This document shows, one piece after another, positions 3,700-59,405 of a stretch of DNA of 64,000 bases; position 1 is the stretch's first letter, and every line of letters starts with the position of its first letter. The stretch is taken from contig NZ_CP114905.1 of assembly GCF_027497195.1 (NCBI RefSeq), positions 1,364,001 through 1,428,000 on the forward strand. Direction: 5' to 3'. A program made the position numbers and the translations under genes. Under the pieces are notes generated by a model. The model was not told where the DNA came from. It was given only the letters and a program-made list of their open reading frames with translations, and did no database searches. The DNA is from Streptomyces sp. WMMC500 (lineage in GTDB: Bacteria > Actinomycetota > Actinomycetes > Streptomycetales > Streptomycetaceae).

Positions 3700-3742
3700 G
3701 ATTGCATCGTAATTGAGACTGCGCTTCCATCAATTTACTCCG

Positions 3743-3755
3743 ATCACCGCGTGAT
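3743..3755. promoter_or_regulatory. Small inverted repeat upstream of the FAD oxidoreductase gene
   Basis: ATCAC-CGC-GTGAT is a perfect 5-bp inverted repeat with a 3-bp centre. It lies in the AT-richer 83-bp gap between the SDR and FAD oxidoreductase genes. It could be an operator or a weak hairpin; it is short enough to be chance. Confidence 0.25.
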
Positions 3756-3782
3756 TTAATCCGGGGCACGCCCCCAAGGATG

Positions 3783-8428: not shown

Positions 8429-9433
8429 TCAGCTCCGGCGCTCGAAGTTCCAGCGCTGAGTCCGCTCGTCGTTGCATTGCCACACCCGAACGTTGGCCCC
8501 GGGCACGTCGCTGCCGCCGTCGACGTCAAGGCAGAACCCCGTGCGCTCGGACACCAGCCGGTAGTCGCCCCGGCCCACGCCCTTGAGACGCCACCGCTGG
8601 GCCGGATGGTCGTTGCAGGTCCGCATCTCCACGTTGGCGCCCTTGTTGTCCGAGCCGGCGGCCACGCACAGGTCCCTGGCGGACAGCGTGTACACGTCGT
8701 TGCCGCGGTCACGCGCGGTAAACCGCTGCCCCGTCTTGTCGTTGCACGCCCACCGGGACACGTTCGTGCCGGACGTCGTGCCGGCCCCCATGCCCAGACA
8801 TCCTCTGGGGCCGCTGTGCACCCGGTAGACCTCGCCGCTGCGCAGTACCGCCCTCGCGCCTGAGGACGTCCCGGTCAGCGGGGTCCCGGTCTGCTCGGCA
8901 GACTCGCCGCCGGCCTCTTCTTCGCCGGACTCCTCGGGAGGCGGTTCCCCGACTGTCTCCTCGCCCGGCAACGCAACGCCGGGATGCTCGGCCGCTTCCT
9001 CGCCCGGCTCGTAGACCGGCTCGGCCCCCTCGTCGGTCGGCGTGTTGCTCGGCGCGTCGGGCCACTCGTCTGTCGGTTCGCCGGTCGGCTCGTCACTCGG
9101 CGCGTCTGTCGGCGGGTCTGCCGACTCCTCAGCAGCACCTGACGGAGGCAGGGGAGCGGCGGGCAGATCCACGGCGGTCGGCCCACCGTCGTCTCCGGCG
9201 AACACGGTCGTCGCCCCCCATATGGACAGCACGACGACGCCCACCGCCGCCACGCTCCAGCCCGTCGAGGTGTACACCCGTCGGCTGGGGGTCAGCCCGC
9301 GTCGGGCCAGCAGTGGGCGGCGGGCGAATGCCTGGACGAGCCTCTGCGGCTGGCTCTGCCGGTTCTGCTGGTCGGGCCGGGTGTCGCTGGCGGGCTGCTT
9401 CGGGTCGTCTGGCTGCTTCGGGTGGTTGCGCAT
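8429..9433 (-). CDS. Single-pass membrane protein with extracellular ricin-type (beta-trefoil) lectin domain
   Basis: This protein of about 334 residues has a basic, Gln/Pro-rich cytoplasmic N-terminus (about 57 residues), one membrane helix (WSVAAVGVVVLSIWGATTVF), then an acidic Pro/Thr/Glu-rich linker of about 110 residues with short PTD/PSDEP repeats. The C-terminal domain of about 135 residues is a ricin B-type beta-trefoil. Its three subdomains end in Q-x-W or a variant (GQRF, AQRWRL, TQRWNF), each with a CLGM, LCVA or FCLDVD element. Such domains bind glycans, so the protein probably sits in the membrane with a lectin head in or beyond the wall. It is the last gene of the giant-gene operon. 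An ATG at 9448 overlaps the preceding stop as ATGA, but the ATG at 9433 has GAGGAG 6 bases upstream and is preferred; the longer form would be 339 residues. Confidence 0.88.
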   Translation of the reverse strand: MRNHPKQPDDPKQPASDTRPDQQNRQSQPQRLVQAFARRPLLARRGLTPSRRVYTSTGWSVAAVGVVVLSIWGATTVFAGDDGGPTAVDLPAAPLPPSGAAEESADPPTDAPSDEPTGEPTDEWPDAPSNTPTDEGAEPVYEPGEEAAEHPGVALPGEETVGEPPPEESGEEEAGGESAEQTGTPLTGTSSGARAVLRSGEVYRVHSGPRGCLGMGAGTTSGTNVSRWACNDKTGQRFTARDRGNDVYTLSARDLCVAAGSDNKGANVEMRTCNDHPAQRWRLKGVGRGDYRLVSERTGFCLDVDGGSDVPGANVRVWQCNDERTQRWNFERRS

Positions 9434-9444
9434 GGGTCGGCTCC

Positions 9445-11715
9445 TCATGAGGTGGGAAGGGGGAGGTCTTGTTCGTCCAGAAGCATCAGCTCGCCTGCGT
9501 CGGGCTCCGTCATCTCGGAGACGCGCAGGGCCTGGCGCTCGGTCATCTGCTGGAAGAGCTGGCGGGCGGCCCGGCCGTTGCCGAACTGCTTGCCGCGCGC
9601 GCTCGCCCCGATGAAGTCCGTGAGCGACTTCCGGGCCGCGTCGCTGAGCTGGTACCTGTGCCTACGGGCGTGGTGCTCGACGATCTGCACCAGCTCGTCG
9701 TCGGTGTAGTCCGCGAATTGCAGGGCGCGGGTGAAGCGGGAGGCCAGGCCGGGGTTCGAGCTGATGAAACGCTCCATGTCGGCGGGGTATCCGGCGGCGA
9801 TCACCACGACCTCGTCGCGGTGATCCTCCATCAGCTTCACCAGGGTGGCGATGGACTCCTGGCCGAAGTCCTGGGCCACTCCGGGCAGTGCCAGCGCGTA
9901 TGCCTCGTCGATGAACAGCACACCTCCGCGCGCCCGCTCGAACGCCTCGGTGGTCTTCGGCCCGGTATGGCCGACGTACTCGCCGACCAGGGCGCTGCGG
10001 TCCACCTCGACCAGGTGGCCCTTCCCAAGAAGGCCGAGGGCGTGCAGCAGCCGCCCGTAGAGGCGGGCCACGGTGGTCTTGCCGGTGCCGGGGTTGCCGG
10101 CGAACACCAGATGACGGCTCAGCGGCGGCGCCGGCAGCCCCGCCTGCTGCCGCAGCCGGACGGTCTGCATCAGCTTGACCATCCCGCCGACGTCCCGTTT
10201 GACGTTGTCGAGACCGACCAACTCGTCCAGCTCCGCGAGCAACTCCGGCAGCGAGGCGGGTGTGGGCTCGGGCGGGACGGAAGCCTGCCCCTCGCCCGGC
10301 CTCCCACTCGACGCCGGGACTGCTCCGTGCGGCCCGCCAACGGAGCCGGCCGGGTGGGCCTCTGCGCCCGCGTGCGGTGACTTCGCGCCCGCGAGGGGCG
10401 GTTGTGTCGGCTCGCCGCCCCCGGTGTGACCGGCGCTCCCGGTGCCCGTGCCCGCGGGTAGGCGGGAGGTGGCGACGTTCACCGAGACGCAGCTTTCGAA
10501 GACCGGCTCGGCCCCCTCCGCCACTGTGACGTCCTGGGCGGCGTTGAAGACGCGGCACCCCTGGAAGCTGGGCGCGGCGCCCCTGGCCACGTGCAGCGCC
10601 GGGAAGGCGGTGGCGGTCACGTCGCAGTGGTCGAAGGCCCCGCGCGCGGTCTCCCCGACCAGGACGCCGTGCTTGCCCGTCCTGGCGATCCGCACGGCCC
10701 GCAGCCGCGCGTCCGCGCCGGACGCCAGCTCGACGCCGTTGCCCTTGTGCCCCATGAACGAGCAGTGCAGCAGCACGGATTCCTCGGTGGACCGCAGCCG
10801 CGCACCGGTCTCTCCGCCGGTCACCCGGACGCCCCGCATCATGAGCCGGGACTGATCACGTACCTCGACGCCCGAAAGCCTGGCGTCGGCCAGCGTGCTC
10901 TCGTCAATCAGGGCCCGCGCCGTGTGGTCCAGCCGTACGCCGGACCGGGCCGCGTTCTCCACTCGGCAGTCTGTCAGCAGTGCCTCGGCGTTGTCCTGCA
11001 CCAGCACACCGTTGCGGCCCGCGCCGAACAGGCCGCTGCCGCGCAGCAGGATCCGGGAGGAGTCCCGGGCCCGCAACGCGGAGCCCGAGCCACCGTGGAC
11101 GCGCAGCAGATCGGCCCGGAGGATCGCGCTACCGGACACGGCGACGCCGATGCCCTCCACTCCCTGGATCGCGGTGTCCTCCAGGCGGGCGAGGGCATCG
11201 CCGGTCAGATGCAGTGCGGTGTGCCGGGCCGCGCGCAGGCGGCTGCGCCGGATCACCAGGACGCCGCCGGCCGTGGGGTCGGCCAGTTGGGCGGACAGGT
11301 CGTCGTCCAGGGGGATCTCGCCGACCGGCACGTCCGGAGGGGGCGTCGGGTTGCGGGAGCCCACTACCTCCACCCGGCCGCCGGTGACGGTGCACTCGGC
11401 CAGGGTCAGGCCCGCCGCGTCCTCCACCTGCAACACCGCTTCGGCCGGGTCGGCTCCGCGCACCACCAGACCCCGCAGGCGGCAGTCGGGCGCCGCCACG
11501 GTCAGCGGACCGGCCGCGGCCGGCACCGCGATGGTGACCGAGCCGTCGCCGTAGTGCGGCTTCAGAGTCACCCGCCGGACCAGGCGGAACGATTCCGCGT
11601 ACTCGCCGGGATCGATGCTGATGACCGCGCCGGTCGGGGCGGCACTCAGCGCGTCGGTGATGGTCCGGTGGGCACCCCTGCTGCGAGGCGACACGCGGAT
11701 CGGCTCAAGCGTCAT
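9445..11715 (-). CDS. Right-handed beta-helix / EccA-like AAA+ ATPase fusion, type VII secretion-associated
   Basis: The C-terminal third of this 756-residue protein is a CbxX/CfxQ-type AAA+ ATPase like the EccA proteins of ESX loci. Walker A GNPGTGKTT begins at residue 540, Walker B VLFIDEAYAL is near 600, and NPGLASRF near 655 carries the likely arginine finger. EccA proteins normally have an N-terminal TPR domain. Here residues 1-410 are instead a pectate-lyase-like right-handed beta-helix made of repeated turns (ARLEDTAIQG, ILRADLLRVHG, ALIDESTLADARLSGVEV). A Pro/Gly/Ala-rich linker (about 410-480) joins the two. The ATG overlaps the giant gene's stop as ATGA, with AAGGAG upstream. The coupling suggests that it remodels, escorts or releases the giant protein; that role is inference. 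Confidence 0.9.
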   Translation of the reverse strand: MTLEPIRVSPRSRGAHRTITDALSAAPTGAVISIDPGEYAESFRLVRRVTLKPHYGDGSVTIAVPAAAGPLTVAAPDCRLRGLVVRGADPAEAVLQVEDAAGLTLAECTVTGGRVEVVGSRNPTPPPDVPVGEIPLDDDLSAQLADPTAGGVLVIRRSRLRAARHTALHLTGDALARLEDTAIQGVEGIGVAVSGSAILRADLLRVHGGSGSALRARDSSRILLRGSGLFGAGRNGVLVQDNAEALLTDCRVENAARSGVRLDHTARALIDESTLADARLSGVEVRDQSRLMMRGVRVTGGETGARLRSTEESVLLHCSFMGHKGNGVELASGADARLRAVRIARTGKHGVLVGETARGAFDHCDVTATAFPALHVARGAAPSFQGCRVFNAAQDVTVAEGAEPVFESCVSVNVATSRLPAGTGTGSAGHTGGGEPTQPPLAGAKSPHAGAEAHPAGSVGGPHGAVPASSGRPGEGQASVPPEPTPASLPELLAELDELVGLDNVKRDVGGMVKLMQTVRLRQQAGLPAPPLSRHLVFAGNPGTGKTTVARLYGRLLHALGLLGKGHLVEVDRSALVGEYVGHTGPKTTEAFERARGGVLFIDEAYALALPGVAQDFGQESIATLVKLMEDHRDEVVVIAAGYPADMERFISSNPGLASRFTRALQFADYTDDELVQIVEHHARRHRYQLSDAARKSLTDFIGASARGKQFGNGRAARQLFQQMTERQALRVSEMTEPDAGELMLLDEQDLPLPTS

Positions 11716-13047
11716 GTGTCCTGCTCTCCTTGTTCGCCGTTCGCGTCGACTGTGCTGCCCGTCCGGGGCACGTCGCTCGTGGGCCCGAGCACGGGCAGCG
11801 TGACGGGCGGGGGCAGGGCATCTGCTTCCGTCGGGTCGACCTCGGGCGGTTTCCCGGCGCCCAGCCAGGTGAGGTTCGCCGCGTCGCGGACCGTGGGCAC
11901 GAGCACGAGAACCACCAGCGACTTGTCCCCCAGCTTGCCGAGGGCAGGGACGACCAGGATGTCGACGGGCCCTCCCCGTTGGTACCAGCGGGCGGCGGCG
12001 GTGTTCTGGAACGTGTATCTCGCGACGCCGCTGCTGACCGATCCGATCCCGGCACCGGCTGCGAACATGGACGCCAGCTTGGCCGCCTCCGCCGTCGAGA
12101 CCTCGTGCCGGTTGCCTTCGGAATCCCGCACGCCGAAGACCTCGGTGGCGGCGAAGTTGCCCACGAACGCGCTGAGCGGGCTGAGCACGAGACCGTCGCG
12201 GAGGAAGGTGTAGGTCCCGGCGCGCCAGCGAAGGGGATGGGTGCTCGCCGTCCAGTCGCCCGTCCAGCTCTCGTTGACCTGACGCACGTGGGCGGACCGG
12301 CCCATGTCCTGCTGGTTGAGTCCCGACACGAGCGTGGTGCGGTGCGCGAGAAGGCTCTGGCCGGAGATGGCGCCTCCCCTGATCCCGCCGGAGATGGCCG
12401 CCACCAGCGCGGCATAGGCGGCGTCCATGCCGGTGAGCGGCCCGGGCAGGATGCCGATGATGGCCAGGTTCATGGCGAAGTCGAGGACGAACTCCTGGAC
12501 GAAAACGAGGACGCCGTACTGGCCGCTCTTGAAGACGAACGGGGTGTAGCTCGACTCGCCGTTCACCGGCGGTCCCCAGAGCGAGCGGTGAGGCTGGGAC
12601 ATCATCTCCCAGAAGCCCCGGATCTCGGTGAGCGAGTCGATGTAGTGGGTCGAGCGGGACGAGAGCAGGAGCGGGCCATGGTACTGCTCCGCACCGGGCA
12701 CGAACGAGGCCGCGGGCCGCTCCCGGACGAATCCGACGTTCGACCGCTCGGTGACCACCCTTTGCTCCCCCGCGCTTCCGGTGACGTACCGGCGCCAGCT
12801 TCCGGTGTCGAAGGCCAGCTCCACGAGGGTCCCGTCCGGCAGTGGCCGCCTGGCGCGGAAGACCGCGCCGTCCTCAAACTCATCCCAGGCTCCGGACCGG
12901 ACGGCGCCCCCTCTTTCGTCATCGTCGAAGTCCCGGTACAGACGAACGCGGATCGGCGCGTCGTTGAGGAACCGGCGCACCCGGCCGCCGACGGGACGGG
13001 GGATCTCCTGGGCGATCTGATGCGATACGGTGCCGACCTCAGCCGCT
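11712..13047 (-). other. C-terminal hydrophobic region of the giant protein (about residues 15387-15831)
   Basis: This last part is not built from the repeats. It contains hydrophobic stretches around residues 15560-15612 (VLVFVQEFVLDFAMNLAIIG and an Ala/Gly-rich AALVAAISGG) and 15746-15775 (DKSLVVLVLVPTV), then a Pro/acidic tail. It could be a membrane-inserting or pore-like end. I recognise no nuclease, deaminase, ADP-ribosyltransferase or other toxin signature. Confidence 0.6.
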
Positions 13048-16000
13048 GCCCCGGACGACGCCGGCAGCGACTCGTACGAGACGGTTCGTGCGCCGGACGA
13101 CGGCGGCAGCGAGTCGTGTGTGATCGCTCTTGCCCCGGACGACGACGACAGCGAGCCCTCCGTGATCGCTCTTGACCCGGACGACGACGACAGCGAGCCC
13201 TGCCTGATCGCTCTCGCCTCGGACGGCGCCGACGCCTCGGAGGGACTGCGGTACCAGTCCTCCCATCGGGCACCGGGCTGCCAGCCGTCCAACTGCCGGG
13301 AGCCGTCGAACCAGACGCGCACCCTGTCGGACTGCGCGCTGCGGTCCCGGTCCGTGCCGCGGCGGTCGAGCCTGCGCCACTGCCAGTTCTCCACGACCTC
13401 GTGGTCGGCCATCCGCCATGCCTGGACGCCGAAGCCTTCACCGAGCAGCCGGTACTCGCGGATCAGCCGGCCGTCAGGCCCGAAATCCCGATACGACTCC
13501 CCGTCGTAGTAGTTGGTGTGGTCGAACTGGTTCCTGGCGGCCAGCGTCCGGGTGCCGGTGGCGTCCGTGCCCTCGACGGTCCAGGTCGCCCGGCCCTCAC
13601 CTGTCCGCACGCCGATGACCCGCACTTCGGCGAAGACCCCGGCGTCCGGCGAGGGGGACGGCCAGGTGTCAGCGCGGGCGATCACCGCGCCGCGGTGGTC
13701 GTGGAGCGTCCAGTCGCCCTCTCGGTATCCGGGTGCCAGTCCCATTACCGGCCGCCGTGGTGGCCCGGCACTGGTGGTGGCTGCGTGGCCAACGCGCATC
13801 GAATCGTGCAGCCTGTCGTCGGAATGGAGAGCTATTCCGAGGAATCGCGTCCCGGAGCGCGGGTGGTAGTCGAGGTAGGAACCGTCCTTGAATCCCATCC
13901 GGACGACGTGCCACACCTGGTTCGGGTTGGGCGTGTACCAGTCATCATGGCGCAGGTTGACCCGGTCCTGCCACAGCACGTCGTCGGAGGTCTTACCGCT
14001 GCCGGCGGGCGGTTCGACGGCGCGCAGGTCGTTCCTGTGGAAAGTCCGGTGGCCCATCAAACGCTCCCGGCCCCGCGCGGTTTCCGACCAGGGCAGGTAG
14101 CTGCGGACCCGGGCCGCTCCCGGCGGCAGGGTGACGGCTGGGCCGACCGTGAGGCGGTTCCCGTTGGCCAGCTCGCGTGTCTCCCCTTCCCAGGAAACCT
14201 CGCCCGGGGTGCGGCGGACGGATCGGGTACCGCCCGGGCCGTGGAATTCGACCCCCGACTCCTCGCCCTGCCGCCAGGTGAACGTCTGGAACCTGCTGTC
14301 CAGCGTCCAGCGGGCCCGGGGGCTTTCTCCGGCATAGCGGCTCTGACGGGGCAGCAGGAAGTCGGGCAGCAGTGCGTTGCGCCACAGCCGGGGTCCTGCC
14401 CCGATGTCGCGGAAGTCACCCGAGCTGGCCAGGCGGAACAGGATGGGCGGGCGCTGTTCGGCGTGCCGGTGAACCTCCAGGAAATCCCCGTTGGACAGAG
14501 TCTTGCCCCAACTGATCCGCTGGCCCTCGGGTGAGAGCACTTGCCAGTTGCCTGTCGGCAGACCGTCGCCGCCCAGTTCGTACGACGTGAAGCTTCGAAT
14601 ACCGTGCCGGGTCAGCGGTCCCTTCTTGATCTCAACCTCTGTGAACGTCCCCCTGCGCGGGTCGGGCATGCGGTCGACATAGCCGAGTCCGAACCGGCCC
14701 CAGGTGCGCTCGCCCTGGGCCACCAGCCGGTTGCCCTCGTCGAAGCGATACCACCCTCCCGTCGCCGGCTCCAGCATCCGACCGGTGTGCCGGGAGGCCA
14801 GGACATAGCCGCCGTCCGGCATCCGCCGGAAGTGGTGCACCGGTCCCTGATCGGCCCTGCGCAGGTGGTTGAGCTCGTGGTAGTCGAGCCAACTGTTGCG
14901 GCTGACGCCATGAATCCGGATGCCGTGGTCGACCACCTGGCCCTGCGGGGTCACCTCCGACCACCGCCTCCGCTCCGTCAGCCCCCAGGGAACGCCGGCC
15001 CGGCGGTCGACGAAGCCGACCAGGCTTCCGGCCTCGTTGGCGTCCAGCGTGTGGTAGCCGCCCGGCAGCGGCCGGCGCTCGAAGACGAAGCTGTGGTCGT
15101 ACGCCATCAGCCGCACGAACCCCTGACCCGACCCGACGGTGCTGCCCACGCCACGGTCCAGCCATGGCGCCGGCCTAGGCGGAGGTGCGCCGTCGCGCCA
15201 GCGCTCCCACGTCATGCCGTCCAGGGCCCCGTTCTCGCGGTAGCGGTAGCTGAGTTGGAAGTACTGGCCGGGCACGGGGTCTCGCCGGTGGACAGGATTG
15301 ATCCGCTGCTCCAGGAGCCGACCGTTCCCGTCGTACAGCTTGTACTCGCCGCCCCAGCCCGCGATGCGGTAGCCATCGCCCACCCGCTCGATTCCCTGAT
15401 GCGGAACTCGGCCGTCGCGCAGTTCACCGTCGAGCAGCCGTAGATCGTTCAGGTCCAGATACCGGCTTCCCCGGGCGTCCGAGAGTTCGGCGACGACGTA
15501 CCTCCGTACGAGACCTTCTGCGCCGGGTGTCCGGACGACTCGGACGCCGTCCAGCGGCCGGACGCGGCCGCGCAACGGGACGATCTCGTACTCCAGCCGG
15601 CCGTCGGGATCGTAGAGCCTGACGATGTCGGCCTTGCGCGCACGGAAGCCGCGGTCCGGTTCGCCGTTCGCGGAGCGGGGCGTGACCACGACTTGGGGGA
15701 CGACCCTGAACTCACTGTCCAGCAGTTCGTAGGAGCGGTACTCCGTGCCGTGGTGAGCCATCCTGTGGACCCGGACGTGGATGCCGGGATTCGGCTCGCC
15801 GGTGAGCCGCGTGGCGTCGTAGCGGAATGCGCCGCTGGCGCCGTCGAAGAGGGTGACGGTGTCGTCGCCGTGGCGGCGCCACAGCAGATCGCCGTTGCGG
15901 AGCTGCTGGATGGTCACGCCGTCGATCTCCTGCCCGTCCGCGCGACGCGGCGCAGGCTCAAGCCCGGGGCCGTAGATGCGCGTGTAGGCGTAGCCGACGG

Positions 16001-19000
16001 TCTGGGGAGTACCGTCGCCGTCGGGCCGGGTGAGGGTGGTGACACCGGGGCGGCTCACGCCGCCGGTACTCGGGTCGAGGACGAGGTGGACGCGGTGGTC
16101 GCGGATCCGGACCTGGACGCGCATTTCGCCATCATGCTGGGGGGTAAGGGTGACAGGACCCTCGGTTTGGCCGGTGAGGCGTGCCGGGCGGGCGGCATCG
16201 ACCGGGATGGTCAGTTCCCGGCCGTCGAGACGGCCGCCGCGGATGGTGATCTGCCACGCGGTGAGGCTGCCGTCGCTCCCGTGGATCCATGCGCGGCTGG
16301 AGAGCCAGTCGGTGACCGTGTACGAGGTTCCGTCCCAGTGGAGGTCGCGACGTGGCACCGGGCCACCGCTGACGCCGTGCAGCCTCGGCTCGCGCGAGGC
16401 GTCGCCGAAGGGCCGGAAGGCGAACTCATCGGCCGCGCCGGCTCCTCGGCCGGTCAACGGCAGCGCCGTGCCCTGGAAGTCGCCCACGGGGCTCACCACG
16501 ATGTGTGGCCGGCCTGCCTCCGCACCGATCCGGAAGCCCTTGTCCGCCTGCGTTTCGACCCCGATGTGCGACCGCTGCCCGCTCCGCGTGAGCAGGTGCG
16601 CGGTCGGCGTGCCGTCGGGATCGGACACCACCAGTCGCTGTCCGTCGACCGCGCTGCCGCCCCGGATCTCGTGCGTCGTCCGGACCAAGCTGCCGTGCAG
16701 TGCGCCCGGGCCGCCGTCGATCCGGTACTCCTTCGCGGTGCCCCCCACGGTCACCATGAACAGGTCACCGGGCTCGTCACCGTCCAGGGGGTAGCGCACC
16801 TGGGCCATGGGCACCCGCACGTCCTGGCCCGGGCGGAACTGCGCGTAGTACAGACCGTGCTCGTTTTCCGGGCTCCGCGCCAGGGTGGCGAATCCGCCCG
16901 CGCCGGCCCATAGCTGGATCGCCACGATGTCGTGGCTGAGGCGGCCGGTGTCGTCCAGCACCGCCGGGTTCCCTCCGGGCATGTCCACGCGGAAGTTGAG
17001 GTCTTCCAGCAGCCGGACCTCGACGGCCGGTACCGCCTCGCCCTGCGCATCCACTACCCGGGCGGCTTGCCGGGCGCCGGGCACCAGGAGGCGCTTCCCG
17101 TCCAGGGGCGACCCGCCCCGGATCGTGTGCACGTCGTGCAGCCAGCCGCCGTCGAGGGTGTGCACGGCCTCGGTGTGGGGCGTCTCCGCCCGGCGGATCC
17201 GGAAGGTGTCTCCGACGCGCTCGGCCTGCGCTCCCGGGCGGACCTCGCCGTTGCCGTCCCGGAGCGTGGGAGCGCCGCGGCCAAGCGGCTCGAAGATGAA
17301 GTCCTGCTCATCCGGCTCGGGTGTACCCGAACGCGGCGCCGCTTCGACGACCCGGAGGTTTGCCGTCCCGGCATCGTCGACGACGACGTGCCGCCCGTCG
17401 AGCGAGACACGGAAGGCACCCTCGTCGGCGAGCCGCGTGACGGCGTGGGTGACCGTGGTGGCGCTCCCGTCCGGCGCGACCCGCACCAGGCTCGGGATGG
17501 CCTCCGGTCGGGTCGCGTCGAACCGCAGATGTGTCCGCTCGAAACCGTGCACGGTCAGCGGAACCCATCGCTCGGAGTGGATGGTCTCCCCGTCCCGGAG
17601 CACCCGCAGCGCGTCACCCTCGCCGGCCGGCTCGTGGCGCACGGTCAGCGCTCCCGTCCCCTCGGGCGAGGTCAGCGCGGCGTCCCGCAACCGCCCCGTC
17701 TCCGGGTCGAAACGGGCCTCAAGCCGGACACCCGCCATCCGGGGCACCCCGAACGACCCCGACGCCGGCTGACGTGGAGGGGCTGCGCCGTCACGGTCGA
17801 AGTGCCAGTCGATCCTGTGCACCGCGAGGACCACGGGGTTGTACGCGCCGTCCCCGGCATCATCCGGCGCGGCCCTGACCACCGCACCCTCGCCCGCACC
17901 CACCACGAACCGATGCCCACCCGCCTCAAGAAGGAACTCCCCCCCACCCCCACGCCGCGACATCGCAACCCCCTCCACCACCCCCCCGTTCCCGTCGACC
18001 AGATACGGCCCACGCCCACCCTCACCAGCCACCACATACCAGCCATGCAACGCCTCACCCACCACCACAGAGCCATCCGCCCCGTGCACCGCCGCACTCT
18101 CACCCTCCACCACCGGCGACGCCACAAACCGATGCCCGCCGATCCCCCGCGCCTCATGCGTAAGCCGGCCCTCACCATCGACCACCACCGGATCCCGGCC
18201 CGGAACACTCACCAGATACCGGTCATCAAACTGCGCCAACCGCACCGCCGCACCACCGGGCACCGGCTCCCCATCCACCGCCCGCACCACCAGCGGCAGA
18301 TCATCCACATCCTCCGGAATCACCAGCCGTACATCACCCCACCCCTCATCCAGCCGACCACCCGACAACACCCACGACTCCCCCACCAACAACCCGTCGC
18401 CCGCATAGAAACGCACACCCCCGCCCGCACCCTCCAACCGCAACCACGCATCCGCCAACCACACCCCATCCCCCGGCCCACCCACCCCAGAACCCACCAG
18501 CCGGGCGAAGACCCGCCTCCCATCCGCCATCGTGGTCAGCTCGTGCGTAACGGTCGGCGAAACACCGGCGAAGTCCACCACCCCGCTCCGGCCATCCACG
18601 TCCACCACAAACCTGCTCTCGAACGGCTCACCCCCCAGCGGAATCACTTGCGCCTCGGCGGTACTGCCGTCCGCACCGACCACCACCGACGGGTACGCGT
18701 CGTTCTCCGCGAACACCAGCCGGTTGCCGCCGCCGATCAGGCCGTCCAGCCCTCCGCCGTCAAGGACACGGCCGACGCTGGAGACGGCGGCACCAGCGCC
18801 GGAGGCGGTTGCGAGGCTCGCCGCGTCGATGGAGGTCAGGCGGGTGTCGAAGTCCGGCCTCTCCACGGCGATCAGGTCGCCGCCGATCGTGGCCCGGCCC
18901 GGCATGTGCTCGCCGGTCCACCGGTACAGTTCTCCGTACCCCCTGCCCGACTCCCCCGGGATCAGGACGAGCAGGCTCTCGCCATCGCCTTCGACCAGGT

Positions 19001-22000
19001 CGTAGGCGACGTGCGTGTGGAGTCCGTGGCCACGGACGACGACCGACGGCTTGTCCAGCACCATCAGTACGTAGCCCAATCCCGGCAGCGGTCTCGCGCT
19101 GATCGACATCCAAAGCCCGGCTGGATCCTGCGCCTCGGCGTGCACGAGGTGCGTTGTGCGCAGGTGGATGCGCCACCCGTTCAACGGCCCGTCCGTCATC
19201 GTGAACTCGCGGCTGACCAGCCTGCCCGTCAAGTCATACGTCGAGATACGGCCGCCGGCGTTGACGACGAGCGCGAACTCGCTGAGCCGGACGGTGCGCC
19301 CGCCGTCGACGACGGGACTCTGGGCCGACTGGCCGGTGAAGTGATACAGCGTGGGTGCTCCGTTGCCGGGGGGCACGGTGAGGATCGCGTTCTCGTACTG
19401 TCCGTACTCGTCCGTGAGCCGGATCACGTCGTGCGTGTGTTGTTCTGCCCTGTTCACCACCAGCGGGCTGCGGTCGGGCAAGTCCAGCACCAGGAAGGAG
19501 TCGTCCGCCAACCGGTATGCGTGAGCTCCGGCGAGGCGTTCTCCGTCCACCGTCGTGACGAAGGGCTGTGACCCGTCGAACCGCAGGTGGTGGCCGGCGA
19601 GCGGGCCACCGGAGGGGGCGGGCTCCGAGGCCAGGGTCTCGCCGCTCCTGTCGTAGACGGTGACCGTATCCTCCTCCCGCACGACGAACCGCCTGTGCTC
19701 CAAAGTCGCCGTCACCTGGTCCGTCACAAGCTCGCCGTCGCGCCTCAGCACTCCTGCCGAGGCGGCCCCCTGCTGGCTCTGGGGCACGTAGAGGATTCTG
19801 TCGGTCTCACGCCCGTCGGCCCGTATCAGGACGACGAACACGTCTGTGTCTTCGAACCCGCGGCCGAGCAAGATCGGATCGGCATCGGGTGGCTCTACGA
19901 GGTAGCCGCGGTGCCCCAGGTCTGTCATCCGTGCCTCATGAACGCGCCCGTCAGGGTGTTCAAGGCGAGCCGGCCCGTCTCCACGCGGCTCGTAGAGCCA
20001 GACCGAGGCCGGGTCGCCCCCATCCGACAACAGCCGTGCGGTGCCCACCTGATACCCACGCTCGTCGTAGGCCGTGGCGTGGCGATCGACTAGGTGGTCC
20101 GCGTGCCAGGGGCGGACTCGGTGGGTGCCGTCGGGGGCGACCCACACGTCCGCCCGACGGATTGACACACCGGTCGGCGAGATCTCCACCACATGCCCGG
20201 TGCCTTCACCGACCGGGGCACCGACGGCCAGGGTGACGGTGCCGTCAGCGCTCTCGACCTCCCGCAGACCAGGCCCGGTCCGCAGCCTGCCGGCCGCGTC
20301 GACAAGCCCGGCACGCCCCCCGGCGTAGATCACGAAGAGATCCGCGTCCAGCTCGACCACCGACGCATCCGCCAGGGGCCTGCCACCCGTGTCCACCGGC
20401 ACCGGCCGGCCACCACCACCTCCCCGGATCACCACCGACTCCGAGAAGTAGTGCAGATCGGCCAGCAACCGGCCATCCAAGCCGTGGAACACCACCTGAC
20501 CGTTCCCCACAGCGATCCACCCCGCCTGCCGGTAGACCCTCACCTCCTCCGCCAGCAACTCACCATGGCTCGCAGCAACCCGCGGATCGTCCTGCCGCGA
20601 CACCGGCGCCACCGCCAGCCGCCCCTCAGACCCCAGCCACGCCTCCTCACCCACCCGGTACAGACCCGCCGCCTGCCCACCACCCACCGGCAACACGACC
20701 ACCCGGTCCGTCACCGCCCCACCCTCATCCCACAACCGGATGACGTGATCGCCGCTCGACACGTCGCGCCAGTGCATCATGGTCTGCCCGTCAGCGGCCC
20801 AGTAATTGTCGACGGCGTTGCCGTCGACGGACGTCAGATGGAGGAACTCACCCTCGCGCACCACCTGTTCCGGCAGCACCTCACCGTCCTCACGGAACGC
20901 CACCGCACGCCCCTCCGCACCCCGCGGCACCGCCACCGACACACCCGTATCGACCGCGTCGTGACGGGGGCCGAACGACAGCCCAACCACGGAGTGGGTA
21001 CGCATCCCCGACCCGTCCAGCACGATACGGTGACGGGCCGACTCCACCAGGAACATCCCGTCACCCAGATCCCTGACGACGACATTCGGGAATCGCTGCC
21101 CGTTGCCGTCCACCAGCCGGTGGTCCCCGTCCCGAGCTACGATCAGACGATTCCCGTCGAACGGGCCGCCGCCCCGGACGCGGGAGGCATCGTGCAGCCA
21201 GGCGCCGTCCAACTCGTGGACCGCCGCGGTGTGGGGCGTCTCGGCCCGGCGGATCTGGAAGGTGTCCCCGACGCGCTCGACTTCCGCTCCCGGGCGAACC
21301 TCGCCGCTGCCGTCCCGCAGTGTGGGGACGCCGGCGCCGGTTGGCTCGAAGATGAAGTCCCACGTGTCCGGCTCCGGCGCGCCCGCACGCGGCTCCGCGT
21401 CGACGACCCGATGGGTGAACTGTCCGGTGTCATCGACCGCGATGTGCCTGCCGTACAGCGAGACCCGGAAGCCGGCCTCGTCCACCAGCGGTGTGACAGC
21501 GTGCGGCGCGGTGTCGGTGCGACCGCCGGGTCCCGTGCGTACCAGGCTGGGAGCGGCCGTCGGGCGGCTCTCGTCGAAGCGAAGATGCATTCCGGCGAAA
21601 CCCTCGGCCGTGAGCAGGACCCAGCGCTCGTTGCCCGCGTCGTGCTCGGCGGTGCGGCCACCGGCGGCAGACTCCGCCGCGCCACCCTCACCATCGGGGT
21701 CGAAGTGCCAGTCGATCCGGTCGGCCATGAACACCACGGGGTTGTACGCGCCGTCCCCGGCATCATCCGGCGCGGCCCTGACCACCGCACCCTCGCCCGC
21801 ACCCACCACGAACCGATGCCCACCCGCCTCAAGAAGGAACTCCCCCCCACCCCCACGCCGCGACACCGCAACCCCCTCCACCACCCCCCCGTTCCCGTCG
21901 ACCAGATACGCCCCACGCCCACCCTCACCAGCCACCACATACCAGCCATGCAACGCCTCACCCACCACCACAGAGCCATCCGCCCCGTGCACCGCCGCAC

Positions 22001-49000: not shown

Positions 49001-52000
49001 GCCGGAACGATGCCAGCATGTCCCCCATGTCCGGGCTGCCCGACAGCACCAGGACACTGTGACTGACCACGCCGTCGCCATCTACCAGGAAGCGCGGACC
49101 GGCCGCCTCGATCAGGTGGTGCCCGTCGACCGGCAAGCGCTGACCAGATACCTCGATCAGGTAGGGCCCGTCGTCGTCCAGTCGGGAGACCGAGACCTCC
49201 TCCACCACGTCCCCGGCCTCGTCCTCCAGCCGAGGCCCGCCGCTCCCGGGTGGATCCGACACCCGGAACCCGGTCAGCGGCTCGCCGACCACCACGCGCC
49301 CGTCCGGCCCCCACAACATCGGCGTAGCGCGAGCATCAACAGGCCGGCCCACGAACCGGCCCGTCTGCACCCCGTCGCGAAGCGTCACCGGCACGAAGTC
49401 ATGGGTGTAATCACCTGTGCCGGACACCAGAACGCGGTTCGGCCGACCCGCCATCCCGACGGCGAACCGGCCCTCCCCCACCGGCTGCACGTGCAGGCCC
49501 CGAAGCAGAGTCCCGTCCGCCGTCTCAGCCCATGGCGCACCGCCCGCCGGCGGGAACACCAGGCGGTTCCCGACACCGATCGCCGCACCGAGCCCGCCCT
49601 CCACGGCGACCTGCTCGACGGACAGCAGATCACCCTGCAGGTCGTGGACGTACGTGAGCCCCTCCCGCTTCACCGTGAGCCGGCCACCGCCCGCGGTCAC
49701 CTCGCCACTCACCGGGGTCAGCCAGTTGCGCCCGGCTCGCCTGATCAGCACACCGTCACCCGTGCCGCCCCTGGGCCAGGCCGCCAGCACCTCTGCCTCC
49801 TCGCCGCCGCCCCGGCCCGCAAGCACAACGGCGTCGTAGACGTACTCGCCCTCCCCGTTCACCAGACCAAGGCCCCGACCAGGCACCGAGATGAGATGGT
49901 GCACCCTGGGGAATGAGGGCACCGACAGCCCCACCGCCAGCACACCGTCCGCGCCCACCACCCACGGCACGCCGATCTCCGGAATCACCAGACGATTCCC
50001 GGCGCCGATCAGAAGACTGAGTTCCTCGTGCCCGGCGACCCGCCCGTTGCTGAAGAACTCGCCGCTCATGGAGTGGAAGGTGAGCTGCTCCCCGCGCTCC
50101 ACCAGCATGGCCTGGCCCCTCACCAGCACCCGGCCGGGCACCGGATCGCCGGTGAAGCTGTCGAACAGCGCCCCGCCGCCGCTGCCACTCCGCGGCATCG
50201 CGGCCAGCGTCCCGGACAGCGCCAGTTCCTCACCGACGAACCTGCCCATCGGCGCCCCCGTGTGAGCCCCGGCCCCCGGCGACGAAGCCGACGGTCCGGC
50301 AGGATCCCGTACGGGATGGTTCACGTAGCCCCCGGTAGGGATTCCGGTCCCCTCCGGCACCGAGGGAGTCCTCTGCTCTTGGCCGAGACCGATCAGGTCG
50401 TAGTGCTCCCCCGACCTGTCGATCACGAGAGGCCCGGGGTTCTCGTGATCGACAGGCCGGGGGAGCGCGGAGGCCACTATCACCAGGTCGTCTCCGAGCT
50501 CCCGCACGTGCGCCGCCGCCACCTGCCTCCGGCCCAGATCCATCAGCCGGGGCGGCCCGCCGTGTTCCGGGACCACCATGACCACCCGCGGCCCGAGCAG
50601 AGCGCGCAGTTCGTCGTTCTCGATGACGCGGACGGCGGATTCGAAGCTGCCGTCGTCCAGAAGGTGCAGGGAGGCGACTCCGTTCGCCTCCACCAGCATC
50701 CGGCTGTCGTCGACCGCGGCCCTGCCCTCGGCGCGGATCGGGCGGCCCTGCATGTCGTAGCTGTAGGCGACTGCCCCGGTGTCGATCCGGCGCACCTCGG
50801 CGGGAACACCCGCGGACCGAGGCACGGCGACGGCGAAGTCCGTGCTCTGGCCGGGCCGGCTGATCGGGACGATGCGCGGGTACATACCCGTGGGGTCCAC
50901 CATTGCCCGGCCGATGTCGGGCACGTCGAGGATGAAATGCCCGTCGCCCCACTGGGTCGCCCTCGAATGCGGCACCCGCCGCCCGCTGTCCGCGTGCACC
51001 ACCTGTGCGGCAGGGTCGTCACCGTGGCGGACGACGAGCCGGTATCCGGGCGCGTCGGCGAAAGGACCGCTGTGGAGACGATGGGACGTCGCCAGCAAGG
51101 TGTGCGAGTTGAAGAAGGCGGCCTTGTCGCCTCCCAGGTCGTCCAGCCGCAGATGGGCGCCCGGCATCCAGACCGCGTCCGGCGGCGTGTCCGACCCCTG
51201 CCCGACCGGCGACGCGTACCATCTCCGGTGTCGCTGACCGGGCACGTCAGGCAGTTGGAAGACGTCGTGGGTGCGCTGACCCCGCCCGTTCAGCACCGCC
51301 CGGCAGTCGTCCACGGTGACCAGACGGATGTCCTGGCCGTCCGCCGGCCAGCGCGTTACCGAGAGCCTGGCCACCGCCCCGTCTGCATCCACCCGCCACA
51401 TCCCGCGCACGTGCGAGATCACCAGCCGGTTGCCCTGCCCGATGAGGTCGCGCAGCGAGTCGTCCGCCACGACGTGCGCGTCCGAGTGGTGCCAGCCGTT
51501 CGCGTCGAGGATCATGTGCCGGCCGTCGTGCTCCACGACGATCACGCCCTGCCCGGACGAGACCGAGCCCTGCAGTCGTTCACCCGTCGCGTCGTGGAAC
51601 AGCCGGCCGGAGCCCGCGCCGTCCCTCGGCACGGCCACGAATACGCCTCTCGTGCGCAGGTGGATGACATGGTGGGTCTCGCGCACGGCGTCATCGAGCA
51701 TCTCGACGCCGTCCCCGCCGGCACCGTGCGAGTCGGAGGAGCCGGAGGCCGCCGCGCCGTCAGGTGGCTCACTCGCGTCGTACTTGATGTCGTGCACCAT
51801 CATGACGGTGACGTCGGGGTCCCGCCCGGCCTCCGTTGCCGACGCGAAGTCAGTGAGGGGGCGGCCCCGCATGTCGTAGCTGTATGCGACGCCGCCGCGC
51901 TCCACGACGATCCTGAGACCGTCGGTGTTCACTCGGCCGTCCAACACCCTGGCGGCACCTTCACCGATGAGCGACCCCTCTCCCTCGCCGGACCGCGGTG

Positions 52001-55000
52001 TCACGGCGAGCTCACCGGTGGGAGTCCCGTCCGAGTGGAGCAGCCGAGTGACGTCGTGGGTGTACGGACCGGGTTGCTGGAACAGGACCGAGGCTCTGCG
52101 ATACTCCGTTGGGCCTTGCGACAACCTGTGAACGCCTAGCGGCACGTGCTGGAACACGGCCACCTCGTCCCCCAGGCCGGGTATCCGCCTGACGATCACG
52201 TTTTCCACCCGGCGCCCCTTGACGTCTAGCACGTGGATCGAACCGTGCGGATCGGCGGGAAAACCCACGTGGTAGCCGTGGAGCTGCCCGCCGTCGATGG
52301 TGGTTCCTTGGCCGAGCGGCAGACCGTTCAGGCTGTAGTGGCGGACCAGGGGGCTGCGCGAAGACGACAGCGCCAGCATGTGCCCACTGACGCTCGGCCA
52401 CCATTCCTGAGCTGGCCGGCTTCCCTCGTAGAGCACGACGTGGTCCCCACGCAGGGGAGCGATGACGAACTCCTCGGCGGCCGGGTCCTGCACGCCCCCC
52501 AGAAACACCACGTCGTGGGTGTGCTTTCCCGCCGGGTCGACCACCCCAGGGCGTTGGCCGGGCACCCGCACCAGATACCCGGGGCGCTGACCCGGACTCA
52601 TCTCGGCCAACTCCGTCACCGAGGAGCCACTCACTCGCCCGCCACTCCCTGGCCGCACGAACGGCGGGCGCCCGTCGCTCGGCACGACCAGGGAGTTCCC
52701 CGCACCCAGCGGGCCGCCGGGACGAACGGGCTGCACGTCCAGCAGCCGGTGGGAGTCATAGGTCCGGGCCTCGTTCTCCGTGTGCACCACGAACCGTTTG
52801 CCGCCCATGGTGATCAGCACCTGGTCCGACAGGAGCCTGCCGTTTTCCATGTACGCGGCGGCATGGGCCCCCGGCTGGAGCGGCCTCATGAGGTGCGCCC
52901 TGTGACTCAAGTGCTGGAAGCGATCGATCTGGTGCGTGATCCGGCCCGTCTCCGTCATCAACACCGACACGTCTTCCCACACCACGTAGTAGAGGCGCTG
53001 GCCACCAGGGTTCAACATGCGGGCCGCTTGGTGAGGGACGGGCCTCACGACGGCGTCGATGTCCTCGAACGTGTGGGTCATCAGGCGCGCTTCACCGTTC
53101 AACGGGATGTAGAACCACGCGTTGCGGGCGCCGGTGATGTTGTCCCATCCCCTGAAGAGACCGTGGGATCCGCTGTATATGGCGGTTGCGTGTCCCACCA
53201 GTTCACCATTCATGTCGTAGACATCGGCGGGACCGTGCAGGTCCGATACCCGGACGTAGCTGCCGTGGAGCGAAGCCCTGTGTGTCCGGCCCCTCTCACG
53301 GCTCATGAGCCGAGCGGCCCCCGCGTCTTGCATGTCTCGCACCGGCCCGACGACCAACTCGCCGGTGGGGAGGCCGTTCCCGTCATTCAGCCGGACGATG
53401 ACGATGCCTGTCACGGCACCGCTGCCGTCGACCAGGCGCGGGGAGTGGCCCGGGACACTCAACTCGAACTGGTTCGCGCCCAGCTCCGTCACGACGGTGT
53501 CCGTCCGCGGCCGTCCGTTCATGCCCAGCACCTCGGGCGCGACACCTTCGCCACGTCCGCGGAGCACCAGCAAGTCCTCTACGGTCGACCCGCCCCCGAA
53601 CAGACGCTCCGGACGGACCCGGCCGTCCATGCCGTGGACGGGGTGCCCAGGGACATCCCCCACCGCGATCCAGCCGGACTCGTGATCCGCCGTCACCCGG
53701 GTCTTCAACCGCCCGCCGTCACTCTCGCGGAACAGCACCCCCTCGCCACGTCCGTTCCGGGGCACGACGGCGGACAGCCCGTGGGGCTGGTCCGTCTCGT
53801 CGAGCAGACGGACCGGGGCGTCGGCATACCTCCCGGCCGGGTCGAGGACGGCCCACGACCCGTCGCGCCAGTGCACCAGATAGAAGCCCTGGGTCCACAC
53901 GTACTGCAGGGTGGGGACTCTTGCCTCCCGCCCGTCCCGCGTCACCACCGAGGGCGAGCCCGCCGCATCGAATGCGACGTGCTCATAACCCAGGGGCCCG
54001 CGCCCGTCAGCGCTCGACGCCTCTCTGGGCATGCCGTCGCGATAGGTCCAGACCGTGGATTCCTGCCGCACCATCGCCGACACCAGCGTGCCGTCCTGCC
54101 TGAACGCCACTGGCAGAACGCCTGGCCGGCGCGGGACGCCGTAGAACATCCCGGGCCCGCTCTCGTCCCGGACGCCGACCGCAATGACCCGGTGGGTCAG
54201 CTCCCCAGCCTCGTTCAACACTACGTCGGCCCGACCGGGCACGTGCACGGCGAATCCCCGATCGCCCTTGAGGGCCGTCACGGTTGCATCCGCGATGCGG
54301 CTGCCGTCGTCTGCCGTCACGTAGCCGTAGCGGCCCCAGCGGGACAGGTAGGGGACGTTCCCGTCGACGGTACGGGCCACGAGATAGGCGTGATGCAGAG
54401 GTCCCACCGGCACGAAGGCCGTCTCACCGGTGACGAGGCGCTCCGCGTTCATCACCGGGAGGCCCACGTGCGTCACCGCACCGTTGCCGTCGACCAGGCG
54501 CGGGGAGTGGCCCGGTACAGTCAACGCGAACCCGTTCGCCGACCGTTCCGCGAGGACGTCGTCCTCCCGCGGCCGTCCGTTCATGCCCAGCACCTCGGGC
54601 TCGATGCCCTCGCCACGTCCGCGGAGCACCAGCAAGTCCTCTACGGTCGACCCGCCCCCGAACAGGCGCTCCGGACGGACCCGGCCGTCCATGCCGTGGA
54701 CGGGGCGCCCGGGGACATCCCCCACCGCGATCCAGCCGGACTCCTCGTCGACCATCACCCCAGTGCGCAGCAGCGTGCCGTCGTTCTCCTGGAACGCCAG
54801 CCCCTCGCCCCGGGGGCTCCGGGGTACGGCGACGATCGTCCCGAGAGGAACGTCGCCCGTGCCGAGCAGACGGACCGGGGGGACGGCGTACCTCCCGGCC
54901 GGGTCGAGCACGACCCATGCCCCGTCGCGCCGGTGCACCAAGTGCAGGTGCTCGCTCGGTACTTGCACAGCGGTGAAATCCGCCGACTCCTCCCCGTTCT

Positions 55001-58000
55001 GCCGGATCACCGAGGGCGCGGAGCCATCCGAGTCGAAGACCACGTGATGCGCACCCAGCAGTCCGTCCGTTCCATCGATCCGCGCCTCAACCGGGACACC
55101 GTCCACATAGCTCCAGACGGTGTCGTCCAGCCGCACCGTCCCCGAGATCAGCGTGCCGTCACCGCTGAACGCCATAGGGACACCCTCCTGGTGGTGCGGG
55201 ACGGCGTAGTGAAACACGCCGGGCCCGCTCCCGGGGGCGCCGTCGACCGGAATGACGCTGTGGCTCACCTCCCCTTCCTCGTCTATCACGACCGCGGCCC
55301 GGCCGCGGCTCGCGACGACGAATCCCCGATCGTCCGGCAGGACCGTCACGGACACATCCCCGTCGCGCTTTCCGTCGATGCCGAACACGTGGGCATCGCG
55401 GCCTGTCGCCGGTGCGTAGAGGTATTTACCGGCGGCCGGACCCTCAGCCATGAGGACTCCACGGGCCAGCAGATTCCCCGCGAAGTCGTAGATCCCGTGG
55501 GTGAGGTCGTCAGGTGCCAAGACATGAATGGCGTCGGCGAGGACAGCCACCTGCTCATCCCCACGCACCATGCCGGTCAGATACGGCGGCTCATCCCAAT
55601 CCGCAGGAAACACGGCGGTCACACCGACGGGTTCGCCGTCCTCGTCCAGCAGGCTCACTTCCCGGCGCACCGTCGGACCCGGGAGGTCACCGAGCGGGTC
55701 CGGCGCCGCCTCCATGTAGACGTTCTGGTCGGTGGACGTGCCACGGGCCGCGGGCAGCGGGGGCAGACCGCCACGGGCCAGGCGCCGCTCCAGGACTCCC
55801 TGCCAGACCTCAGCCCTGTCAGCCTCATACAGCCGCCAGAACTCCCCCTCATCCACCCGGTTGAGGCCCGCCGTCCTCTCGCCCTCACTCAGGAACCGAC
55901 CGGAATCCGGATCGAAATGCGCCCGCCCATCCGGCCCGTACACCACCAACCGCCGCTGCGACGGCGCACCCTCCAGCCGCACCACCCGGTCATACAACCG
56001 CGTACCATCCACCGTCTCCACCAACGGATACGGCCCCGGCCCACCCCCATCCCGACCAACCCACACCCGCACATCCGCCTGCCCCGGCCGATCGGTCAAC
56101 AACAACGGCCTGTACGTCTCCTCAAGCGGCCCCACCGGCTCCGGCACACCCGCGTCCTCAAGCCGCGGCAGACCGCCGCCGCGAGGACCGTCCAGCCCAG
56201 CGGCGGACGGACGGACGGCCAGGGGCACAGGCACAGCCTCGGACGCCCCCGCGCCCGGTGGTGAGGGAGCCGGCGCCCCCGACGCCGACGCGTGGGGCGC
56301 CGGGGGCGTCGGGGAAGTCGGGGGCGCCGGCGACGCCACCGCCGAGGAGGACGGCGGGGCGGTCTGGGTGTCGGGGGACGCGGCGGCTTCGCCGCGGGCG
56401 TGGGAGGGGGCGGCGGAAGCGTCGGCCCCCTCGGCCGGCCTGCCGACGACAGAACTGATCTTGACCGGGGGCATCCCCGGTGCATGCAGGGTGATGTCAC
56501 CCAGCGTCCCGGTGCCGCCGGTCTCTCGGACCGGCTGAGGTACGTGGGCGGCCGCACCGCCGCCTGTGGCCTGGGTAATCGGCCGCGGCGGCGCCGCGGC
56601 GGCGGCCGCGTCCGCGCCGGTCTCCGCCCGTGTCGCGGGGGTGCCGGCCACGCCGTGGCTCAGCCCTTCACCGAGGTTGACGGACACCCGCGACATCGCG
56701 CCCAGGTCCAGCTCCAGTTGGCCGGGCGCGACCTGGTTCACGGCGACGCCCTCCGGGAGCGGTGAAGGCGACGGAGTCGGGGTGCCCTGGGTGCGCGGCG
56801 ACAGGCCCGCCGCGCCGATGTCCGGGGCCAGGCGGGCGCCGGCCCCCATCTGGGCGACGTTCGGGGCGCCGATGATCATGCCCTGGTCGGCGAGGTGCAG
56901 CCGTACACCTGGGGCGCTTGCGATGTTGAGGTCGAGGGCGAGCTGTTCGACCGCGGGGGTGTTCGCCGTGGACGGGTGACCGACGGGCTGCGGCGCTGCG
57001 TGACCGGAGAGACGGGCGGGGGTGTTGAGGGCGGCGAGGTCGTGTCCGGCACGGCCTGCTCCGACGCCGGCGAGGCCCTCCAGGTTGAGCCCCTGCAGGC
57101 CGCCGAGGAGGCCGGCGTTGCGGGAGACGTCGCCGGATACCAGCTCGCCGTGGGTGAGGTTCACGCCATGCGGTGCCACCGCCGAAACGTCGCCGAGCTG
57201 CGGCATGCTCGTCACGTGCACCGGGGGCATCTGCCCAACGCCCGTCGGCGTCAGTGTCAGGCTGCCCGCGTTGTACTCCATCCGGACAGGGGCGAACGAG
57301 CCCAGGTTGATGTCCAGCGTGAGGTTGGTCATCGCTGTACCGCTGGTGCTCGCGGGTACCTGACCCGGGGCAAGAGCGTTCACCGGCACCTGGCCCGGCG
57401 CGGGGGCGTTCACGGGGACCTGCCCGGGCGCCGGGGTGTGCGCCGCCGGCTGCGTGGCAGCCGCTGCTGGTGGCGGCGGAAGCAGTGGGATCTGCACGCC
57501 GACGGTCTGGCCCTCGGGGCCCGGGACGTGCGCCACCACCGAAGGCGGCAGCGGCAGGAGGAATTCACCCTGCACGTGGGGGGCGCCCGCGGCCAGGTGG
57601 TCAGCGGAACCCAAGGAAGTGTCGGTCACCCCTACCCGCACGCCGTGGTCGGCGAAGTGCAGAGAGATCGGCGGAGCGGGGACGATCTCCGCCGGGGTGG
57701 CGATGCCTCCGCGCGAGAGGTGGGGAGGGGGGACCAGGGTGAAGGACGAGCTTGCGGACGGCAGGTTCGTCAGCGGCTCGATCCCGCTCGGCCTGACGGC
57801 CGTCTCCGGGTTTCCGTCCAGCAGGCGCGAGGCGAGAAGTGGCGAAATCGGAGCCACGCCTGCCAGGTCAAGGCCCTCCAGATTCAGGCCCCCGAGGCCG
57901 GAAGCCGGCCGGACCAGGCCGGGCGGCGGCACCCCGACGGCCCCCAGCCGGGAGAGGTCCGCCCACCTGACCACACCGGGGCGCGCCAGGGCCACCCCCG

Positions 58001-59290: not shown

Positions 59291-59405
59291 ATCGTCGTTC
59301 CCGTTCCGCACGCGGTCCGTGAACCTTTTCGACCGGCCGTGCGTGGAGCGATGTGACAGGCGGTCCCGGGCCGGGCCGCAACCTCACGCCTCATCGGAGG
59401 CCACC

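Follow-up and report, generated by a model that had tools for sequence, protein, structure and literature searches.

The window analysed here, a stretch of 64,000 nucleotides from Streptomyces sp. WMMC500 (contig NZ_CP114905.1, positions 1,364,001 to 1,428,000), holds a single gene of 47,496 bp (11712..59207, minus strand) that encodes a protein of 15,831 amino acids (aa), referred to below as the giant. Its uninterrupted reading frame is confirmed as real, and both ends of the protein are homologous to those of its relatives. We propose that the product is exported by the flanking EccC/WXG100-type locus and is likely an effector on a very long stalk of beta repeats, which was probably lengthened about tenfold by tandem duplication; the probability that we give this reading is a little below one half, at roughly 0.45. 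What is established concerns the sequence, while export, location and target are predicted.

The gene runs from an ATG at window position 59207 to a TGA at 11712, through 15,831 codons with no internal stop, and the computed mass and pI of its product are 1.69 MDa and 5.2. The five remaining frames over the same stretch contain 29, 233, 304, 383 and 263 stops, the plus frame at the gene's own coordinates being the one with 29, and the longest chance frame found there is about 2,590 aa. A sequence-only reading of this DNA had described one titin-scale open frame of 47.5 kb with a strong Shine-Dalgarno/ATG start and a stop overlapping the next gene, all of which is borne out; its coordinates hold as well, and the strand, which it had left unstated, is minus. 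A Shine-Dalgarno-like GGAGAGGGGG sits 5' of the ATG, and the shorter start is therefore preferred over an in-frame GTG at 59387, which would give a version of 15,891 aa. At the other end, the TGA shares four nucleotides (ATGA) with the ATG of the next gene, and AAGGAGAG lies ahead of this overlap. Codon-position GC content shows a coding-like pattern that holds evenly over the whole gene, with 0.81-0.88 at the third position in all sixteen blocks (each of up to 1,000 codons), and the source genome is a single contig of 8.61 Mb that is 99.97% complete. It is thus very improbable that the length is an artefact, whether of repeats expanded in assembly or of a decaying frame that yields no product. 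Assembly of long similar repeats is difficult, and several copy pairs have a ratio of nonsynonymous to synonymous substitution rates (dN/dS) close to 1; however, the seven most similar of the compared copy pairs still differ by 4-11% at the DNA level, which argues that they are not one repeat assembled repeatedly, and the frame without stop or frameshift, the single contig and the coding GC pattern throughout also stand against an artefact.

The first 245 residues (58473..59207, minus strand) form the predicted export domain, for which the best other matches have 42-43% identity. This N-domain begins with the motif R-P-P-D-W ... D-P-T-P-G-D-P (noted in the form R-P-x-D-W ... D-P-T-P-G-D), followed by a predicted helical region, an F-x-G turn (F56-V-G58) and then hydrophobic segments at residues 170-232. 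A Kyte-Doolittle scan placed the latter within residues 160-235 (58503..58730, minus strand), and in a similar place in the five relatives scanned. Across 21 aligned N-termini, G58 is among the invariant columns, and 17 of them match PF21725 (T7SS_signal) at E<=0.1, with a best value of 2.8e-10. The N-domain is accordingly homologous, as predicted from these alignments, to the Pfam T7SS_signal family, making the giant a candidate type VII substrate. The YxxxD/E export motif of type VII substrates lies after the hairpin; the one match in residues 1-250 of the giant, Y55-FVG-E59, is found inside the turn instead. The PE domain (PF00934) is absent from the N-terminal 1,000 aa of the giant and was not found in the genome, in a search whose control was positive in only one of 14 genomes. 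Residues 421-1000 (56208..57947, minus strand) are a linker that is rich in proline and alanine by composition and has almost no self-match.

The locus in which the giant lies is shared. Seventeen relatives were fetched from 43 other matching genomes, hand-picked, twelve from among the stronger matches and five for having the longest frames, and their loci carry EccC (17/17), a gene like the window's 159-aa WXG100-like gene (17/17), the 340-aa gene (16/17) and the AAA gene (16/17, the contig ending in G133). In addition, a scan of named genomes found 47 loci, two in some genomes, across Streptomyces, Embleya, Kitasatospora, Actinacidiphila, Nonomuraea, Sphaerisporangium, Planotetraspora, Dactylosporangium, Catenuloplanes, Kribbella and one actinomycete metagenome-assembled genome. 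In all 42 named loci that extend more than 1.5 kb past the match, the AAA gene follows downstream in the same orientation, with its nearest piece no further than 1.8 kb away, although in locus L079 the match is a 34-residue piece only. The locus order in relatives reads as fixed: EccC, WXG100-like genes, the big protein and the AAA+/beta-helix gene.

Surveys of family, class and genus, drawing on partly overlapping samples of larger groups, place the giant at the upper end of this family. The N-domain is matched at E<=0.001 in 44 of 150 family genomes, where frames besides the giant reach 6,476 aa, and at E<=1e-20 in 17 of 394 genomes of the class, where other frames are at most 3,919 aa; the C-terminal domain (C-domain) is matched in 28 of 392 genomes of the genus, with other frames of at most 4,238 aa (each count includes the giant's own genome). 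In a protein collection, 12 proteins of 5,575-7,075 aa carry the N-domain, and at least 58 of 1,836-4,546 aa carry the C-domain, some of these entries being partial. No homologue of the repeat array scored among 450 scored candidates of 5.5-17.5 thousand amino acids (kaa), in a collection that may miss very long proteins, given that the giant's own protein is not listed there. Judged by these matches, the giant is an expanded member of a widespread actinobacterial family of ~2-7 kaa in the relatives found, of which we found no description in the literature searched. The sequence-only reading, which took the giant for a rarity, is upheld in that the giant is longer than every relative found, but not in that it would be an isolated oddity. 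Type VII substrates are generally discussed at sizes from roughly 100 to some 2,000 residues, and the earlier figure of 100-2000 is already exceeded by the giant's own family. Homologues of more than 5,000 residues beside EccC, for which a search had been suggested, do exist, as members of 5.6-7.1 kaa occupy the same locus slot in three fetched genomes.

Between two close relatives, the homologues of S. sedi and S. zhaozhouensis, dN/dS is 0.10 for the N-part (residues 1-420), 0.51 for the linker, 0.47 for the module, 0.57-0.69 for the C-part and 0.48 for the C-domain. These values point to strong purifying selection on the N-part and weaker constraint on the rest, a pattern that a constrained export address and a remainder facing changing partners would fit.

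The length of the giant lies in its repeat array, residues 1001-13990 (12,990 aa; 17238..56207, minus strand), which consists of diverged copies of a module that is single in relatives (their residues ~900-1900). Windowed self-comparison gave non-self matches over 83.8% of the protein, and over 97-100% of each 500-residue block between residues 1,001 and 14,000; windows of 140 residues have a median of 8 matching places, self included, and a maximum of 24. Near-identical copies occur at offsets including 1157, 1302-1304, 1862, 1931, ~2460 and 5587 residues, and long older blocks near 1847. The youngest visible super-repeat pairs residues 11373-12745 with 12677-14099 (16911..25091, minus strand), at an offset of 1304 aa and up to 96% identity. 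Outside the array the S. sedi homologue aligns directly, with its residues 1-889 corresponding to 1-938 of the giant, 2351-3635 to 13998-15307 and 3645-4065 to 15396-15814, while its residues 993-1847 match many places in the array. Windows of the S. sedi and S. zhaozhouensis proteins have many array matches at ~900-1,800, one to three at 1,850-2,250 and up to eight at 2,251-2,550; this concentration at ~900-1,800 indicates that the large module is single in both. Depending on the choice of ends, the array is 9-14 times as long as its counterpart in these two proteins.

Within the array, the best internal match exceeds the match to the relatives' module in 42 of 43 windows (median 228 versus 47 bits), and the copies therefore arose, or were homogenised, in the giant's own lineage. 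The longer relatives of 5.6-7.1 kaa also contain internal repeats, covering 43-61% of the protein in the four tested, which indicates that lengthening by duplication recurs in the family. As the sequence-only reading had it, the repeats after the N-terminus are beta-rich: the structure model of residues 7505-8200 is all-beta, with a predicted local distance difference test score (pLDDT) of 80, and its local Foldseek matches are to WD40 proteins. Rhs/YD repeat families of Pfam were not listed at E<=1 for residues 1001-10000 or at E<=0.5 for residues 10001-14831. The giant is also, as had been stated, neither a polyketide synthase (PKS) nor a nonribosomal peptide synthetase (NRPS), since adenylation, condensation and ketosynthase domains have no Pfam match in any of its pieces. 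More generally, no Pfam family was over its cut-off in the pieces of the giant, and no NCBIfam model in its 1,000-aa N- and C-terminal pieces. In combination, tandem duplication probably lengthened a beta stalk about tenfold.

An array of so many diverged module copies in one chain could instead be a polyprotein, exported and then cut into many pieces, so that the giant would never be one functional chain. We consider this improbable, as the repeats lie at uneven offsets (from 1157 to 1931 aa and beyond) and no protease or processing domain was found in the giant by Pfam.

Several features of composition were noted along the giant. The array is almost free of lysine, with 22 residues in 12,990 (0.17%), in comparison to 3.3% in residues 1-420, 1.4-1.6% in the neighbouring EccC, AAA and lectin proteins and 0.53% in the S. 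sedi module, which is less depleted than the array. The actinobacterial Pup tag is attached to lysine, and escape from pupylation is one idea for this depletion. The giant contains two cysteines in total, and two brief stretches in which 14-residue units are repeated in tandem and in frame, one Ser-rich and located before the C-domain (13047-13233) and one acidic and located inside the array (41984-42098).

The C-terminal part comprises a conserved beta region, residues 13991-15400 (13008..17237, minus strand), recognised by homology to relatives, and the conserved C-domain, residues 15401-15831 (11715..13007, minus strand), with 44% identity to the S. sedi homologue. Over the C-terminal 1,200 aa, the giant has 29-38% identity to 11 relatives, with many invariant columns. 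Long helices are predicted at residues 15557-15776 of the C-domain in a low-confidence model. Local Foldseek matches of the C-part model are to DDB1 and an Rhs core, the latter with a probability of 0.66-0.72 but a template modelling (TM) score of 0.05-0.06, from a poor model.

The case for an effector comes from relatives that have a different end in the same slot. Of the four fetched relatives that lack the C-domain of the giant, three (G051, G085 and G106, but not G055) have a protein that ends in a Scabin-like domain over the Pfam cut-off, and two members of the protein collection, P0011 and P0012, also carry this family. Scabin is reportedly an ADP-ribosylating toxin of a plant-associated Streptomyces. 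Given that three members end in a Scabin-like ADP-ribosyltransferase, the slot can carry an effector, and an effector role for the giant is inferred from the same observation. Long members may also carry enzymes mid-chain: PF05547, an M6 peptidase family, is present in the precomputed annotation of five of them (P0003, P0004, P0007, P0008 and P0012), and P0044 is named Tox-PL domain-containing by one source.

These Scabin-like ends, which make sense outside the cell, also bear on the idea that the giant is unexported and serves inside the cell, tied to a membrane, as a scaffold for the secretion locus or as its regulator. Such a role would suit the hydrophobic segments that the giant has at each end, while the relatives of its N-domain are annotated or modelled as T7SS-secreted (P0066; PF21725), and we give this idea only a small chance.

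A number of results weigh against an exported effector on a lengthened stalk. No Pfam or NCBIfam model matched the giant's own N-terminus; the earlier claim of a type VII N-terminus is thus supported by PF21725 in relatives and by the EccC-type and WXG100-like neighbours, and not by the giant's own score to any Pfam family, so that its T7SS signal assignment rests on its relatives. EccB and EccD, which belong to a canonical actinobacterial ESX (T7SSa) locus (PF05108, TIGR03920, PF19053), were not found in the giant's genome, in searches whose controls were silent for two of the models and weak for the third, and no candidate immunity gene was found among the neighbours by Pfam or NCBIfam. In the array, ten compared internal copy pairs have a dN/dS of 0.65-1.04, indicating weak constraint; the simple method used probably underestimates dS in so GC-rich a genome, and no claim of positive selection is made. 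Self-similarity at low identity also covers 36-42% of the S. sedi and S. zhaozhouensis proteins, so that the module is single as a large unit and not in its sub-repeats. The array is modelled as all-beta, and a stalk fold for it is tentative. The model of the C-part is of low quality (pLDDT 54), testing the C-domain for a glycine zipper gave no significant result, and no enzyme domain was found by Pfam anywhere in the giant, nor a recognised toxin domain or releasing protease over the Pfam cut-off. Lastly, the C-domain is common to 13 of the 17 fetched relatives, unlike the variable ends of classical polymorphic toxins.

The lack of a Pfam enzyme domain, the beta repeats and this one conserved C-end with its long predicted helices would equally suit a permanent cell-surface structural protein or adhesin, such as a stalk of the hyphal or spore coat, exported by the same machine and not a toxin, in which the repeats would provide length or binding sites and the C-domain would anchor the chain. 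Surface proteins are given as a main class of huge bacterial proteins in the available portions of one source (PMC11573180), and giant open reading frames (ORFs) elsewhere are proposed as adhesins or coats in those of another (PMC10066038). On the other hand, three members in the same slot end in Scabin-like ADP-ribosyltransferases, no known anchor motif was identified in the giant, and a C-part that changes as fast as described above (dN/dS 0.57-0.69) is unlike a conserved structural part. We regard this surface role as unlikely on balance, though as a serious contender.

If the giant is instead an exported effector on a stalk, as we prefer, the genes around it suggest how export could proceed. 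Upstream and codirectional lies an EccC/EssC-type ATPase, whose C-terminal 859 of 1,562 aa are in the window (61420..64000, minus strand, continuing past its edge); it matches FtsK_SpoIIIE with an E value of 2e-59 and has hydrophobic segments at 310-350, while EssC/EccC models were all below cut-off. Between it and the giant are three plus-strand genes: a divergent gene of 340 aa without a Pfam match (59409..60431), which is matched in 16 of the 17 relatives, and two small WXG100-like genes with helical products. The protein of 101 aa (60498..60803) is assigned by family evidence and alone has no PF06013 match, and that of 159 aa (60837..61316) scores 16.2 bits to PF06013, below the cut-off of 27.3. 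When 18 small partners were aligned, 16 from ten other loci and two from the window, 10 matched PF06013 at E<=0.1 (best 1.3e-9), and the window's two matched weakly or not at all.

Downstream, the giant's stop overlaps by 4 nt the start of a gene for an AAA+ protein of 756 aa (9445..11715, minus strand), in which an N-terminal right-handed beta-helix is followed by AAA and AAA_lid_6. Its nearest models are SpoVK, CbbX and EccA, all below the curated NCBIfam cut-offs (for TIGR03922, EccA, 224 bits under a cut-off of 466.65). It overlaps in turn, also by 4 nt, a gene for a protein of 339 aa with one transmembrane segment and a ricin-B lectin domain (8429..9448, minus strand).

In the mechanism proposed, EccC would recognise the chain by its N-terminal helical domain, which probably pairs with a WXG100-like protein, and the AAA+ protein would hold the chain in solution or unfold it ahead of export. 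On the surface, the array would serve as an extended stalk, and the C-domain, in which long helices are predicted, would have a membrane as its site of action. A stronger version is more tentative, and on present evidence doubtful: that a dedicated type VII machine moves a single 1.7-MDa chain, that the copy number of the module is a length dial on a secreted stalk, and that the chain has an AAA+/beta-helix chaperone of its own, the two being translated together. If this were true, type VII secretion would have no practical size limit, and the giant would be its longest known substrate. With the same two ends around ~2,000 to 15,831 residues, related strains would allow a direct test of the machine's size limit, and tandem duplication by itself would be shown to suffice for lengthening a surface or effector stalk. 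Very long cargo would then probably be handled with the help of the AAA+/beta-helix partner, which was matched at all named loci able to show it.

Elsewhere in the genome, there are at least four more genes of ~1.5 kaa with a related N-terminus (G000:C1 7451215, 6663668, 3965917 and 4286566), and the last residues of three of these proteins (L055, L056 and L057) differ mutually, as in polymorphic toxins. Two further EccC-type ATPases are found at G000:C1 5488205 and 6650966 (L059 and L060), with two Esx-size genes after the first. PKS and NRPS genes begin ~11 kb to the right of the window (G000:C1 ~1438600-1445400; L001 10599-17400). Within the window, two overlapping frames for LacI-type regulators were noted by eye on the plus strand, at 4770-5828 and 5815-6855, the first of which has no lysine.

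Among known systems, polymorphic toxins offer the most obvious comparison. In the available portions of their survey, WxG, LxG and LDxD are the type VII N-domains of these toxins, and giant actinobacterial proteins combining several toxin domains are mentioned (Zhang et al., 2012; PMC3482391). To judge from those portions, the giant has in common with such polymorphic or multi-toxin proteins its length, its repeats and a type VII-type N-domain (LDxD by motif, in our own reading). In layout, the giant resembles such a toxin carrier, yet it lacks two traits of the class, a recognised toxin domain and a varying C-end. The type VII effectors of Firmicutes include none stated to be so long, as far as the available portions of the source extend (PMC9333272). 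Nor is the giant the largest bacterial protein, given that ORFs of Omnitrophota are longer, reaching 39,678 aa in Velamenicoccus; these are likewise single ORFs with few annotated domains, though much longer, and no link to type VII secretion is described in the portions of the source available (PMC10066038). Rhs/YD-repeat shells and beta-propellers resemble the models of the giant in their all-beta repeated meanders and in local Foldseek matches, and EccA, SpoVK and CbbX share with the downstream partner AAA and AAA_lid_6 but not its N-terminal beta-helix or scores above the curated cut-offs.

Closer to the giant are the PF21725 T7SS_signal proteins, such as P0066 of Actinacidiphila alni ('putative T7SS-secreted protein'), which have a homologous N-domain and, in relatives, EccC-linked loci. 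They differ in that the giant is below detection by the model and is far longer (15,831 aa versus 2,602 aa for P0066). The members of 5.6-7.1 kaa with Scabin-like ends have the same N-domain and, in the three fetched, the same slot, but another C-end and under half the giant's length. The closest relatives are hypothetical proteins of 4,069 and 4,067 aa in S. sedi JCM 16909 (L080 = G296) and S. zhaozhouensis (L070, G185, P0064), respectively. Both have the N-domain, linker, module, C-part and C-domain in the same order and lie among the same neighbours; the difference is one module of ~1,000 aa in place of the giant's 12,990 aa of copies.

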